Source of the DNA: Salinirussus salinus
GTDB taxonomy: Archaea > Halobacteriota > Halobacteria > Halobacteriales > Haloarculaceae
Direction of reading: 5' to 3'
Assembly (NCBI RefSeq): GCF_009831455.1
Contig: NZ_WOWO01000002.1
Location: forward strand, 248,001 to 312,000
Length of the DNA: 64,000 bases
Position 1 is the stretch's first letter. The number at the start of each line of letters is the position of its first letter. The translations under genes were made by a program, and so were the position numbers. Positions 667 to 6,129 of this stretch are shown one piece after another. A model generated the notes under the pieces. That model saw nothing but the letters and a program-made list of their open reading frames with translations. It was not told the DNA's origin and did not search any database.

Positions 667-1812
667 ATGAAGGTCGCATACCTGTATGACGCAGTTCATC
701 CATGGGAGAAAGGCGGCGCCCAGAAGCGGGTCTGGGAGTTGGCCAGGCGGCTGGCCGACGACCACGACGTCCACCTCTACGGGATGCACTACTGGGACGG
801 CCCGGCTGTGATGACCAAAGAGGGTGTGACCCTCCACGGCGTCTGCGAGCCCAGGGAGCTGTACGTCGACGGCCGACGGTCAATCCCCCAGGCGCTCACC
901 TTCGCCGCCAGCCTCGTTCCCCCGCTCCTGCGCGAGGACTTCGATATCATCGACTGCCAGGAGTTCCCCTACTTCCCCTGTTTCGTCGGGAAAGGTCACG
1001 AACTTCTCCGGGACTCGACGCTGGTCGTCACGTGGTACGAGGTCTGGGACGACTACTGGCACGACTACCTCGGCTGGAAGGGCGTCTTCGGGCAGGCCGT
1101 CGAGCGCGCCACCGTCCGGCTGGCCGACACTGTCGTCCCCATCTCGGAGTACATCGCCTCGGACCTGCGGGCCATCGGCCGCACGCACGGGCTCGAGGTC
1201 GTCGAAAACGGCGTCGACTTCGACGGCCTCCAGGATATCCCCGCAGCGGACGCCGACTGGGACCTGGTCTACGTCGGCCGGCTCTCCGAGCACAAGAACG
1301 TCGACTTGCTGCTCGACGCCGCGGCCATCGCCTCCGGGCGGATGGACCGCGAGCTCTCCTGCTGTATCGTCGGCGACGGCCCCGAGCGCGACCGTCTCGA
1401 AGCGCACGCCAAGGACGTCGGCGTCGCCGACCAGGTGGACTTTCTGGGCTTCGTTGAGGCCGACGACGACGTCATCGGGAATATCAAGGCCGGCTCGGTG
1501 TTCGTGCTGCCCTCGACCCGCGAGGGGTTCCCGAACACGATCCTCGAGGCGAACGCGTGTGGCGTCCCGAGCATCGTCGTCGACCACGAGGAGAACGGGT
1601 CGACGGCCGTCGTCGAGGACGGCGTCACCGGCTTCATTACGTCGGTCTCCGCCGAGGCCATTGCCGACCGCGTCGTCGACCTCCTCACAGACGACGACCT
1701 CCTCGCGGACCTTTCTACCGGAGCCAGGGAGTTCGGCTGGGCCCACGACTGGGATGTGATCGTCGACGACCTCGAAGACGTATATTCAAGTGCCGTGCAG
1801 GCAGACGGCTAA
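667..1812 (+). CDS. Glycosyltransferase family 4 (GT-B fold)
   Basis: 381 residues, normal length for GT4. The N-terminal Rossmann half has the GGAQKRVWELA loop (about residues 16-26) that contacts the acceptor or nucleotide. The C-terminal half has YVGRLSEHKNVDLLL near residue 202, an IVGDGPER segment, and the STREGFPNTILEANACG motif starting at about residue 283, whose two Glu residues (E-x7-E) bind the donor nucleotide-sugar. It most likely transfers a sugar from an NDP- or dolichol-linked donor while a surface glycan is built at the cytoplasmic face. It is followed 7 bases later by an epimerase and a sulfatase, so one operon is likely. The exact donor is not readable from sequence. Confidence 0.9.
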   Translation: MKVAYLYDAVHPWEKGGAQKRVWELARRLADDHDVHLYGMHYWDGPAVMTKEGVTLHGVCEPRELYVDGRRSIPQALTFAASLVPPLLREDFDIIDCQEFPYFPCFVGKGHELLRDSTLVVTWYEVWDDYWHDYLGWKGVFGQAVERATVRLADTVVPISEYIASDLRAIGRTHGLEVVENGVDFDGLQDIPAADADWDLVYVGRLSEHKNVDLLLDAAAIASGRMDRELSCCIVGDGPERDRLEAHAKDVGVADQVDFLGFVEADDDVIGNIKAGSVFVLPSTREGFPNTILEANACGVPSIVVDHEENGSTAVVEDGVTGFITSVSAEAIADRVVDLLTDDDLLADLSTGAREFGWAHDWDVIVDDLEDVYSSAVQADG

Positions 1813-1819
1813 CCAGTTG

Positions 1820-2755
1820 ATGTCAGACCGCGATATCCTCGTCACTGGGGGGGCAGGGTTCATCGGCTCGCATCTCGTCCGGCAACTGACCGACGCTGGC
1901 GCGAACGTGCTCGTCGCCGACAACTGCTTTTCGGGCACGCCGTCGCTCGTTCCGGCCGGCGCCCGTCTCGAAACTGTCGACATCAGAGACGAGGAGTTCG
2001 CGGACCTCATCCGCGCGTTCGAGCCCACCGACGTCGTCCATCTCGCTGCCCTCCACTACATTCCTTACTGTAACGCGAATCCCGAGGAGGCGTTCCAGGT
2101 TAACACCATGGGCACCCGCAAGCTCGTCAGCGCGGCCCGCGACCTCCCTGGCCTCGACACGATGGTCTTCGCCTCCTCGGCGGCCGTCTATCCGCCCCGC
2201 AAGGGCCCGAACAGCGAAGCCTCCGAAACCGGTCCGATGGACATCTACGGCGAGACCAAGCTGGTCGGGGAAGACCTGATGCGACTGTTCCACAGGGAGA
2301 CAGGCGTGCCGACGGTGACGGCCCGGCTGTTCAACGTCTACGGCCCCAGCGAGACGAACGAACACCTGGTCCCCGCGGTCCTCGAGCAGGTCCGCCGCGG
2401 CAACCGGGAGATCGAACTCGGAAACTTGACGCCCAAGCGTGATTTCGTCCACGTCTCTGACGTGGCACGCGCGCTGAGGACGCTGCTAGCGGAGTTCGAG
2501 GGCGGCTACGGAACCTACAACGTGGGCACAGGCACCGAGTGGTCGGTCCGGGAGGTCGTCGAGCAGACCAGCGAGGCCCTCGGCGAGGAGATCGAGGTCG
2601 TTCAGGACGAGGACCGCGTCAGGGAGAGCGACCGGCCGCACCTCCAGGCCGACATCTCCCGCATCCGGGCTGACTTCGGCTGGGAGCCCGAGGTCGAGTT
2701 CGTCGCGGGCCTGCGCGACCTGCTCGAACAGGACGAGGAGGTGGTCGTCGCGTGA
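1820..2755 (+). CDS. NAD-dependent nucleotide-sugar epimerase/dehydratase (extended SDR)
   Basis: 311 residues with an N-terminal Rossmann GGAGFIGSHL motif for NAD binding, a FASSAAVY strand carrying the active-site Ser near residue 119, and YGETK near residue 143, the Tyr-x3-Lys catalytic pair. These define UDP-glucose 4-epimerase-like extended SDRs, which change the stereochemistry of, or dehydrate, an NDP-sugar. I chose the ATG at 1820 because it begins directly before the ILVTGGAG strand; a frame start at 1790 would overlap the glycosyltransferase. It shares a GTGA overlap with the following sulfatase gene, pointing to translational coupling. Substrate is unknown. Confidence 0.9.
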   Translation: MSDRDILVTGGAGFIGSHLVRQLTDAGANVLVADNCFSGTPSLVPAGARLETVDIRDEEFADLIRAFEPTDVVHLAALHYIPYCNANPEEAFQVNTMGTRKLVSAARDLPGLDTMVFASSAAVYPPRKGPNSEASETGPMDIYGETKLVGEDLMRLFHRETGVPTVTARLFNVYGPSETNEHLVPAVLEQVRRGNREIELGNLTPKRDFVHVSDVARALRTLLAEFEGGYGTYNVGTGTEWSVREVVEQTSEALGEEIEVVQDEDRVRESDRPHLQADISRIRADFGWEPEVEFVAGLRDLLEQDEEVVVA

Positions 2756-4020
2756 CAGAGCGCAACGTCGTCATCGTGACCTACGACAGCCTCCGGGCGG
2801 ACCACTGCGGGTACATGGGCTACGAGCGGGACACGACCCCCAATCTCGACGAGCTGGCCGAGGAGGGCGTCGGCTTCACGAACGCCATCTCGCCTGCCTC
2901 GCGGACGAACCCGTCGATGGCCGGGGTCTTTACCGGCGAGCCCATGGTTGCCAGAGACCGGGTTGCCGACCCGGACCACGCCCGCCGCCACCTCGCGCGC
3001 TACGGCACGCTCGCCGAGGAAGTCTCCGGCCGGGGGTACACGACCGGTGCGTTCAATCCGAACGCCTACGCGTCGCGCCACTACGGCTTCGACAGAGGCT
3101 TCGACCACTTCGAGGACTTCCTCTTTTCCAGCGACCAGTACCAGCAGGTCTTCCAGAAGCACCTCTCGGATTCCACGCTGTACACGCTGGTCCGGAACTT
3201 CAGGAATTACCTGCGACGCGAGGAGGCGTTCAAGACCTGGGATCGGTACATCGATGAGATCGAGGCGTGGTGTAAGGACCAGTCGGAGCCGTTCCTGCTG
3301 TGGGTTTTTTCGCTCGATACACACTTTCCGCATCTCACTCCCCGACAGCACCGGGAGTGGAGCAGCCTCTTCGAGCAGTACTACTACAACTGGCGGTGCA
3401 ATCAGCTCATCGACGAGATGGACCCTGACCTCTCGGAGAAAGAGGTCCGGAAGATCGTCGACATCTACGACGATTCGGTCCGCTTCGGGGACGTGCTGCT
3501 CTACGAACTCCAGGAACGGCTGGCGGAGTTCGACCCCGTGTACGTGGTCTTTGGCGACCACGGCGAAGCGTTCGGCGAGCGGGATATATACGGGCACTTC
3601 TATCCCTCGCTGTACGAGGAGAACATCCACGTCCCGCTCGTTGTCTCGGAGGCCGTCGACGGGATCGACGACCACACCAAACCGCTCTCGCTCACGCAGG
3701 TCCCGTCGATCGTCTCCCAATTCACTGGCGGCGACGACCGGCCGGAGGTCGGTAACTGGGCCGTCGCGTCGGATTACGACGGGCGGACCGACCGGAATCT
3801 GATCGCAGTCCGAACTGAAGAAGCAAAGCAGATCGTTTCCTGGCAGGACGGACAAGTGGCCCGTGAGGAGACCTACGACCTGCGCGAGGCTACGCTCGAG
3901 GAGTCGCCCCTTCCGATAGACAGCTCGATTCACGAGACGCTGAGGCCACTCACGCAGCGGCGGTATAACCACGAAGAAGAGTTGCTGTCGATCACCTCAA
4001 GCGTCGCTGACGTAGCTTAG
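2752..4020 (+). CDS. Sulfatase/alkaline-phosphatase-superfamily hydrolase
   Basis: 422 residues beginning at a GTG that overlaps the epimerase stop by four bases. The N-terminus has VTYDSLRADHCGYMGY, the first metal-binding Asp segment of the superfamily, followed by TPNLDELAEEG. RTNPSMAGVFTG aligns with the nucleophile loop, with Thr52 in the nucleophile position rather than the Cys/Ser of formylglycine sulfatases. VFGDHGEAFGE supplies the second Asp-His metal pair. The enzyme is likely a phospho- or sulfo-transferase/hydrolase acting on surface glycans. Haloarchaeal glycosylation clusters commonly contain such genes. The C-terminus lacks the short ERLxxLGY tail, which instead appears on the small protein at 430-657. 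Confidence 0.87.
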   Translation: MTERNVVIVTYDSLRADHCGYMGYERDTTPNLDELAEEGVGFTNAISPASRTNPSMAGVFTGEPMVARDRVADPDHARRHLARYGTLAEEVSGRGYTTGAFNPNAYASRHYGFDRGFDHFEDFLFSSDQYQQVFQKHLSDSTLYTLVRNFRNYLRREEAFKTWDRYIDEIEAWCKDQSEPFLLWVFSLDTHFPHLTPRQHREWSSLFEQYYYNWRCNQLIDEMDPDLSEKEVRKIVDIYDDSVRFGDVLLYELQERLAEFDPVYVVFGDHGEAFGERDIYGHFYPSLYEENIHVPLVVSEAVDGIDDHTKPLSLTQVPSIVSQFTGGDDRPEVGNWAVASDYDGRTDRNLIAVRTEEAKQIVSWQDGQVAREETYDLREATLEESPLPIDSSIHETLRPLTQRRYNHEEELLSITSSVADVA

Positions 4021-4520
4021 TCCCAACTTCGCGGAACGTCGACAGCCTCCTGAAGGCCTTCGACGCCGTCACCGCCGAGCACGACGCCACCCTGGGCATC
4101 ATCGGCGACGGGCCCGAGGCAGAGCGCCTGCGCCGACAGGCCCGCCGGCTCGACCACGCCGACCAAGTCACCTTCCTCGGCTTCTTGGTGGAGTACGAGG
4201 CTGTCCTGGGCCACATGCGCGCCGCTAGCGTGTTCGCGTCGCCGTCGACCCGCGAGGGCTTCGGGATCACCTACGCCGAGGCGATGGCCGCCGGCTGTCT
4301 CGTCGTCGGCGCTGACCATCCCGACCCCGCCGCGGACGAGGTAGTCGGCGACGCGGGCTACCTGCCAGTGCCGACCCGCAAGGGCGTCGCCGCTGCACCC
4401 GACGCCGGGCTTTCCGGACAGGCCCCAACAGGCGATCCGCGAGAGCGAGCGCGACAGTTCGACTGGGGAAAGGTCACCGACCAGGCGGAGGAGGTCTCCG
4501 AACGGGCGAGGGCAACGTGA
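4011..4520 (+). pseudogene. Glycosyltransferase family 4 remnant, C-terminal half only
   Basis: The frame is open from 4011 (after a stop at 4008) to the TGA at 4518-4520 and encodes RNVDSLLKAFDAV, LGIIGDGPEAERL, VTFLGFL and a complete STREGFGITYAEAMAAGC motif. These correspond to the donor-binding half of a GT4 enzyme. The whole acceptor-binding half is missing, and the open frame abuts the sulfatase stop. The first ATG (4185) would give only a 111-residue protein that lacks the GDGP segment. I therefore call it a deletion remnant, similar in class to the intact glycosyltransferase at 667-1812. Confidence 0.8.
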
Positions 4521-4696
4521 AGCTAACACCTGCTGGGATCCCCATTTGTGCAGACTGTCCTCGCCTGAGACTGTCGTTAGGAGAATCATCAACAACTCAC
4601 CGCAAGGGTAGTGGAGGTGTCGGTGGACCCATTGCCTACCGTTTCGAAGGATGCCTCACAGCAGTATTTCAGTCCTTTCGTACCTTTCATTCCTAT

Positions 4697-4706
4697 TACT
4701 TTTTAC
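4697..4706 (+). promoter_or_regulatory. Likely TATA element for the toxin-antitoxin pair
   Basis: A T-rich tactttttac stretch lies about 30 bases before the ATG at 4733 in otherwise GC-richer sequence. This is the usual distance for a haloarchaeal TATA element driving a leaderless message. Confidence 0.4.
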
Positions 4707-4732
4707 AATCCTCGCCGTACTCGTACACAGGC

Positions 4733-5104
4733 ATGTCGATCGACCGGGACACCTTCGAGAACACGAGCGAGGAAGAACTCGCGGACCTCTCCGTCCCTGA
4801 CCAGGTACTCGGGTTTCTCGTTGCCAACGATGACCGTGCTTTCAAAGCGCGCGAGGTCGCCTCCCAACTCGGTGCCGACGAGGGCGCAGTCAGTACCGCA
4901 CTCTCGCGGCTGAAAGAGCGAGGGCTGGTCGAACACAAGGCGACGTACTGGGCGGTGACCGACGACGAAGACCGGCTCGAGGGGTACAGTGGCTACGAGC
5001 GGGCGACGGCACTGTTCAACGAGCGACTCGGAGCGGAAGACAAGGAATCGTGGCGTGAGCACGCACCCGGTGAATCTCATCCGAACGTGGAGAGCGAGCA
5101 GTGA
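4733..5104 (+). CDS. Winged-helix (MarR-like) putative antitoxin
   Basis: 123 residues. Residues 20-80 form a winged HTH: VPDQVLGFLVAN, then FKAREVASQLGADEGAVSTALSRLKERGLVEHK, the recognition helix and wing. Small MarR-type proteins of this kind sit directly in front of PemK/MazF-like genes in haloarchaea and are taken as antitoxins that also repress their own operon. Its stop overlaps a GTG (5101) by four bases, which looks like the ancestral toxin start. I chose the ATG at 4733, ahead of the SIDRDTFEN start of the conserved domain and 30 bases after a TATA-like tract. A longer frame start at 4517 is unlikely because its first 72 residues are not acidic. Confidence 0.75.
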   Translation: MSIDRDTFENTSEEELADLSVPDQVLGFLVANDDRAFKAREVASQLGADEGAVSTALSRLKERGLVEHKATYWAVTDDEDRLEGYSGYERATALFNERLGAEDKESWREHAPGESHPNVESEQ

Positions 5105-5573: not shown

Positions 5574-6129
5574 GATCCAAACTCCGCGTTACTGGACGAG
5601 ATCCCCGAAGCGGCACGGAAGTGAAAGCTACGGCCGTCAACTGCGATCCAAACACGGCCGTAGAGCCCGCAAGTAGAGGGAATTCGGAGTTTTGATCCCG
5701 GTTTTGGACCAGTTTCGTCCGCGAGAGTCAACTCTCGTAATAATCTTATTTTTGCCGAAGAGACCCCGGAGACGTGCTCAGCGCCCTGGTTTGAAATCTT
5801 GTCGCTCTGATGGTGGGCAGCCCACCGAGGTGGCTACCAGCAAACCGCAAGACGGCAACCGTGTTTGGATCCGAAGCCGGCCCGAAGTAACTCACAAATG
5901 ACGAGCGACCTTTCACGTCGGACAGTCTTCCCACGTTCGGAATCGCCAGACGGAATCCGGTCACGTCTACATCCCCACAGCCGGGGGGCGGTTCCAAGAC
6001 TACCGATCCAAACTCCGAATTAGCCACTACTTGCGGGCTCTGAGCGGAGTTTGGATCCCGGATTGAGTGGGTTTCCGACGATCAATGACCCGATAGCCGG
6101 TCCTTAGCCGGTCACGCGGAGTTTGGATC
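5574..6129. repeat. 556-bp non-coding segment with perfect 15-bp terminal inverted repeats and a 9-bp motif array
   Basis: Bases 5574-5588 (gatccaaactccgcg) are the exact reverse complement of 6115-6129. Inside, the 9-mer GATCCAAAC occurs forward at 5574, 5645 and 6005 and reversed at 5863, 6049 and 6121, with a one-mismatch reversed copy at 5689. Two of these pairs bound units of about 54 bp (5645-5697 and 6005-6057) that are imperfect reverse complements of each other, sharing an agcccgcaagtag core. No supported gene lies inside. This looks like a MITE, a decayed transposon, or a cluster of protein-binding sites. No clear target duplication is seen. Confidence 0.7.

Follow-up and report, generated by a model that had tools for sequence, protein, structure and literature searches.

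A symmetric box array in haloarchaeal genomes as a candidate docking site for a HerA/VirD4-type DNA translocase

Architecture of the segment

The window, which is the whole 64,000-nucleotide stretch of DNA that was analyzed, carries a 556-bp segment (Table 1) preceded by two genes: one at 4733-5104 encodes a MarR-like winged-helix protein (E 1e-6), the other a protein of 111 aa without a Pfam match. The original prediction had called these neighbors a toxin-antitoxin pair; the two genes are there, and the label is plausible only. Upstream of the winged-helix gene, a truncated glycosyltransferase fragment (window 4017-4520) suggests that the region has been rearranged.

The 15-bp terminus at 5574-5588 (GATCCAAACTCCGCG) is the exact reverse complement of that at 6115-6129 (CGCGGAGTTTGGATC), and GATCCAAAC or its complement occurs at 5574, 5645, 5689 (with one mismatch), 5863, 6005, 6049, and 6121, so that the perfect inverted ends and the seven-copy 9-mer array of the original prediction were both recovered. 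Only five matches to GATCCAAAC with one mismatch were found in the remaining 63.4 kb of the window, which places the cluster of seven boxes in 556 bp far beyond chance (Poisson, ~6e-14). The 13-mer GATCCAAACTCCG occurs four times in the 3.37-Mb genome, each time within the segment, and its reversed control does not occur. Two units of about 54 bp had been described as inverted copies of each other; when 5645-5697 and 6005-6057 (~53 bp each) were compared in this orientation without gaps, 32 of 53 positions were alike, with the resemblance located at the ends and in the CCCGCAAGTAG core, and because this core is displaced by a few bases the units are not clean inverted copies. None of the open reading frames of at least 70 aa in the segment is kept in the 73%-identical congener copy, in agreement with the earlier view that no coding frame is convincing.

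Table 1. Parts of the element in the window and homologous frames elsewhere
Feature	Position	Strand	Sequence or remark
Whole element	5574..6129	.	Orphan copy, symmetric box array, exact 15-bp inverted ends
Homologous frame to 5574..6129	L012:8931-9474, L022:2498-3050, others		
Box L1	5576..5586	+	TCCAAACTCCG
Box L2	5647..5657	+	TCCAAACACGG; 71 bp after L1
Accessory core, left unit	5667..5673	+	CCGCAAG
Box L2'	5685..5695	-	TCAAAACTCCG; one mismatch; end of left ~53-bp unit
Weak additional box	5698..5708	-	TCCAAAACCGG; one mismatch; congener copy has box too
Central core	5843..5855	+	AACCGCAAGACGG; asymmetric
Central box	5859..5869	-	TCCAAACACGG on minus strand
Box R2'	6007..6017	+	TCCAAACTCCG; start of right ~53-bp unit
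Accessory core, right unit	6030..6036	-	CCGCAAG (CTTGCGG on +)
Box R2	6045..6055	-	
Box R1	6117..6127	-	Outer right box

The element family and its partner ATPase

A copy that is 73% identical over the whole segment lies beside the same winged-helix gene in a genome of the same genus (G145). In this congener, two elements (L022:1044-1590, of type TCCACAC, and L022:2498-3050, of type TCCAAAC) flank one winged-helix gene within 2 kb. On the second replicon of the genome under study (C4), a partial match at 590930-591475 lies directly 3' of an ATPase gene at 587033-590944 (+) and starts within the final codons of that gene, which encodes a protein of 1302 aa. Relatives with altered boxes are present in other families of Halobacteria, and the shared frame comprises an outer box, 71 bp, a second box, about 9 bp, CCGCAAG, a centre, and a mirror arm; the centre is asymmetric, AA(A/C)YCG..AGACG....CCG-box, and the 71-bp spacing between L1 and L2 is found nearly everywhere in the family. 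The box consensus is 11 bp (TYCANAMWCSG), with the type set by base 5 (and base 2). A search for further haloarchaeal copies had been suggested, and an independent unit pattern matched about 86 times, in 48 of the 391 genomes, versus about 9 times for the reversed control. In many Halobacteria, the frame stands directly 3' of a gene for a HerA/VirD4-like ATPase of about 1200-1300 aa. Within 1.4 kb downstream of the ATPase genes (51 rows, 40 of them distinct), 66 exact boxes were counted versus 3 in equal coding controls. No boxes were found downstream of a well-supported sister clade of the ATPase, and some element-type ATPases have no recognizable box nearby. Distant blastn of the element against plasmid and phage collections gave no real match. 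Two other search strategies were discarded: a generic 21-bp centre pattern, run on the whole class, returned mainly noise outside the true family, and a de novo k-mer repeat search was drowned by GC-rich coding repeats.

The C4 partner protein matches PF10412 (TrwB_AAD_bind) with 39.7 bits against a Pfam cut-off of 20.5, with TraD-like NCBIfam matches below cut-off. Foldseek matches of its predicted core (pLDDT 84) are DndH, HerA, and TrwB (E ~1e-10), and the core fold and Walker motifs place the protein in the HerA/VirD4 (TrwB) clan. The C-terminal third (pLDDT 83) contains a region with CxxC, a winged helix that resembles MarR, and a domain that appears PD-(D/E)XK-like from a weak Foldseek match to Can2/Card1 (wHTH + REase; E 8e-4), the closest match, and from residues D331, E346, E348, and K364 (D..ExE..K), which are invariant in A1, an alignment of the ATPase C-terminal domain. 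A profile search of this C-terminal domain against PDB sequences gave no match; the domain is present in 159 of 391 genomes of the class.

The ATPase genes are found in integrated elements and on plasmids without a recognizable relaxase, and each of the 156 plasmid records that carry the family is classed as non-mobilizable, i.e., without a known relaxase; PF03432, the relaxase family searched, was absent from 9 of 10 genomes examined, including the genome under study. The transfer apparatus was assessed by VirB4 only. In most element-bearing genomes examined, a VirB4 relative lies 10-50 kb from the ATPase gene on the same contig, mostly in divergent orientation; this linkage was seen in G000, G296, G338, G404, G406, G402, G234, G422, and G260, and VirB4 was also found by list comparison in G380, G450, G378, G349, G262, G307, G285, G367, and G185. 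In the genome under study, the VirB4 gene is at C4:558355-560223(-). Two properties of an oriT or clt locus are present, namely a non-coding cis site that adjoins its transfer gene and a transfer apparatus (VirB4) encoded alongside. Further neighbors of the ATPase genes include TFB and ArdC-like genes and, close to many of them, a gene with an RPA-like OB fold. On pNRC200 (L200:7132-14058), a distant ATPase relative is located between a VirB4 and a primase gene in a compact cluster, with no boxes downstream.

The copy in the window is an orphan with no ATPase gene nearby. One to four dispersed orphans are found per genome (one to five copies in all), and copies are 65-84% identical overall with the boxes strictly kept. 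Pairs of dispersed copies within one genome align over 535 bp at 77% (L024/L025), 660 bp at 84% (L193/L194), and 575 bp at 70% (L188/L189), and homology stops sharply at the element borders. No target-site duplications are visible at the borders of L193/L194 and L024/L025, where the copies are old. The right-flank gene of L194 occurs in related genomes without an element match beside it; its left flank was not found in relatives, so the joint of an empty site could not be read. Orphans sit between ordinary host genes, with no common partner gene besides TnpB-like insertion sequences and chance pairs, and two of them (L188 and L063) retain pieces of the ATPase. Orphans may have been captured from transferred DNA, may be what remains of decaying integrated elements, or may have transposed. 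As minor observations, orphans of two unrelated genera adjoin a DUF4330 gene (L057:1176-2600 in G144 and L190:423-1625 in G392); CAAX-protease-like genes (L058:1436-2281 and 4353-5036) lie on both sides of another; and surface-polysaccharide clusters with glycosyltransferases and UDP-glucose dehydrogenase (window 667-4520, L064:2319-3647, and L179:572-3548), of a kind frequently swapped among strains, adjoin some orphans.

Box types and residue 1242 of the ATPase

Boxes are of type TCCAAAC in the window, TCCACAC in copy A of G145, TTCACA in G184, G401, and G260, TTCAGA in G406, and TTCATA in most genomes, and within one element a change of type affects all boxes together. The type of the orphans was compared with that of the ATPase-linked copy in the 15 genomes having both, using genome weighting and types compiled by hand; the two agreed in 13.5 of 15 genomes, versus a shuffled mean of 4.5. 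Genus g77 alone has T, C, and G types, and its orphans follow. The exceptions are G246 and, in part, G392, with orphans of a different type.

The alignment column that best tracks base 5 is residue 1242 of the C4 ATPase (A1 column 380) in the motif IWVVMT[Q/R/H]xxGH, and this residue sits where a predicted helix makes its first turn. It is Arg with C-type boxes (12/12), Gln with T-type boxes (18/18), and His with G-type boxes; one of the Arg/C-type cases, G402/L193, was not among the genes from which the column was picked and was read later. The C type arose by about four changes on the protein tree, at least two of which are forced by starred branches. Contacts of Arg to the G opposite C and of Gln to A are common in protein-DNA recognition. 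With A-type boxes, the residue is Gln, Gln, and Thr, so residue 1242 alone fails to explain A versus T. Because the column was selected out of about 330 and the alignment rows are related, the residue-base covariation is strong but short of proof. Type matching and this covariation point to direct recognition, and at the sequence level it is strongly suggested that the boxes are read by the C-terminal domain of the ATPase. Column 407 of A1 also tracks type, with Thr in T-type, Asn, Ser, or Gly in C-type, and Lys in G-type rows.

Interpretation and alternatives

With a probability of roughly 0.55, the segment is a cis docking or initiation site, similar to oriT or clt, for a HerA/VirD4-type hexameric DNA translocase. 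Of the three possibilities raised originally, the best fit is an array of binding sites for a factor whose gene lies elsewhere, most likely the C4 ATPase. The translocase would use its C-terminal winged helix and PD-(D/E)XK-like domain to read the 11-bp boxes, with a single residue, where a helix begins, reading base 5. The linked site, placed just 3' of the ATPase gene in integrated conjugative-type elements or plasmids with VirB4 nearby, would act in the manner of an oriT or of clt in Streptomyces; the odds of such a transfer role are about even. The outer symmetric boxes may serve in loading the pump or giving it an orientation, the cut position or the direction of pumping is probably fixed by the asymmetric centre, and orphans could be used in trans, marking chromosomal or plasmid DNA for mobilization. 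The sequences document the architecture and spread of the family, its linkage to the ATPase and VirB4, the type matching, and the residue-base covariation; we infer that DNA would be physically bound, cut, and transferred at the site, with transfer starting there in cis and, through the orphans, in trans. The literature searched contained no description of such a site, and as far as could be found the family would be a previously undescribed, widespread docking site of salt-loving archaea.

A structured non-coding RNA gene would account for folding that is much better than that of shuffled sequences (z -8.1), but this extreme folding is explained by the inverted boxes alone, Rfam gave no match to the segment, and direct-repeat boxes, which are unable to pair, also change in concert; box-core spacers are 50% alike between arms versus 39% between elements, with no helix-like covariation, and an RNA gene is very improbable. 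An operator array for the adjacent gene pair is barely credible: the pair is adjacent here, as is the winged-helix gene in the congener, but it lies upstream of the segment rather than downstream, and most other copies adjoin unrelated genes, so the toxin-antitoxin neighbor, beside which copies might have been expected, is incidental.

The mobile element of the original prediction (a MITE or dead transposon), with a transposase acting in trans on boxes at its ends, finds partial agreement in perfect inverted ends, in dispersed copies with sharp borders in one genome, and in the element-free relatives of the L194 flank. The low copy number, divergence with preserved boxes where near-identical copies would be expected, and the lack of visible target-site duplications tell against it, no transposase with the same ends was found, and box type follows the VirD4-like ATPase; it is regarded as unlikely, and the original interpretation as partly supported overall. 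A centromere-like partition site or replication start of a plasmid family would make the FtsK/HerA-like ATPase a segregation motor and the orphans remnants of integrated plasmids. Iteron-like arrays on plasmids and integrated elements, together with the RPA-like gene, fit such a function, which is nonetheless unlikely given that the genes linked to the element encode a conjugation-class ATPase and VirB4 rather than Rep or ParA, and that several copies last on one chromosome, which is disfavored for a centromere or origin. A further possibility is a role in defence, in which the ATPase would be a nuclease resembling Mad8, DndH, or HerA-DUF4297 and the element would regulate it or mark self DNA. 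In favor are a PADLOC mad8 match (E 7e-12), DndH as best fold match, with HerA-DUF4297 complexes also matched, and the Can2/Card1-like domain. The mad8 match is limited to the ATPase core, common to the whole HerA/VirD4 clan, and the neighbors are the VirB4, RPA-like, TFB, and ArdC-like genes instead of defence partners, which leaves a defence function improbable.

For the docking-site reading, the relevant background is the open question of how transfer is initiated in archaea, where many VirB4 and coupling proteins occur almost without relaxases; unknown relaxases have been suggested (PMC3158045), and other work states that archaeal genomes are devoid of apparent relaxases and proposes that HerA-NurA takes the place of the relaxosome in archaeal DNA exchange (PMC9905601). 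A site that corresponds to a conjugation-type pump at the level of single bases and amino acids is a candidate for the missing archaeal transfer start site, and with the site and the protein both defined and recognition predicted to depend on a single residue, the question becomes directly testable in ordinary haloarchaeal strains. More tentatively, and with the odds somewhat against it, haloarchaeal conjugation may be relaxase-free, a single protein that joins a VirD4/HerA translocase to a sequence-reading nuclease-like domain both recognizing and opening the site, and orphans on chromosomes making host DNA transferable.

The closest functional parallel is TraB-clt of Streptomyces, in which TraB recognizes 8-bp repeats at clt for conjugation of double-stranded DNA and chromosomal clt-like sequences are thought to mobilize markers (PMC4170104). 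Both systems have one translocase of the FtsK/HerA clan, short repeats, and a cis locus on the element's own plasmid, whereas the haloarchaeal element has a VirB4 gene nearby and an archaeal host. To our knowledge, the TRS repeats of clt have no symmetric 540-560 bp frame and TraB lacks a domain of the PD-(D/E)XK-like kind. The oriT of type IV secretion systems and its VirD4/TrwB coupling protein resemble the haloarchaeal system in the TrwB-matching core, the nearby VirB4, the inverted repeats, and the non-coding cis site; unlike a classical oriT, the haloarchaeal system has no recognizable relaxase gene or known nic site, and a probable recognition domain and a possible nuclease are fused into the coupling ATPase. 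HerA-NurA also couples a HerA-like motor to a nuclease, but NurA is a separate protein of RNase H fold, whereas in the haloarchaeal ATPase the nuclease-like domain is part of the motor protein and goes with particular boxes. Haloarchaeal mobile elements carrying HerA/VirB4/VirD4 are described in PMC9259645; these integrated elements and the VirB4-ATPase-primase cluster of pNRC200 have a similar gene set, and no cis site is described in the parts of that source consulted. The VirB4 of pNRC200 is 86-97% identical across many genera, which suggests recent spread.
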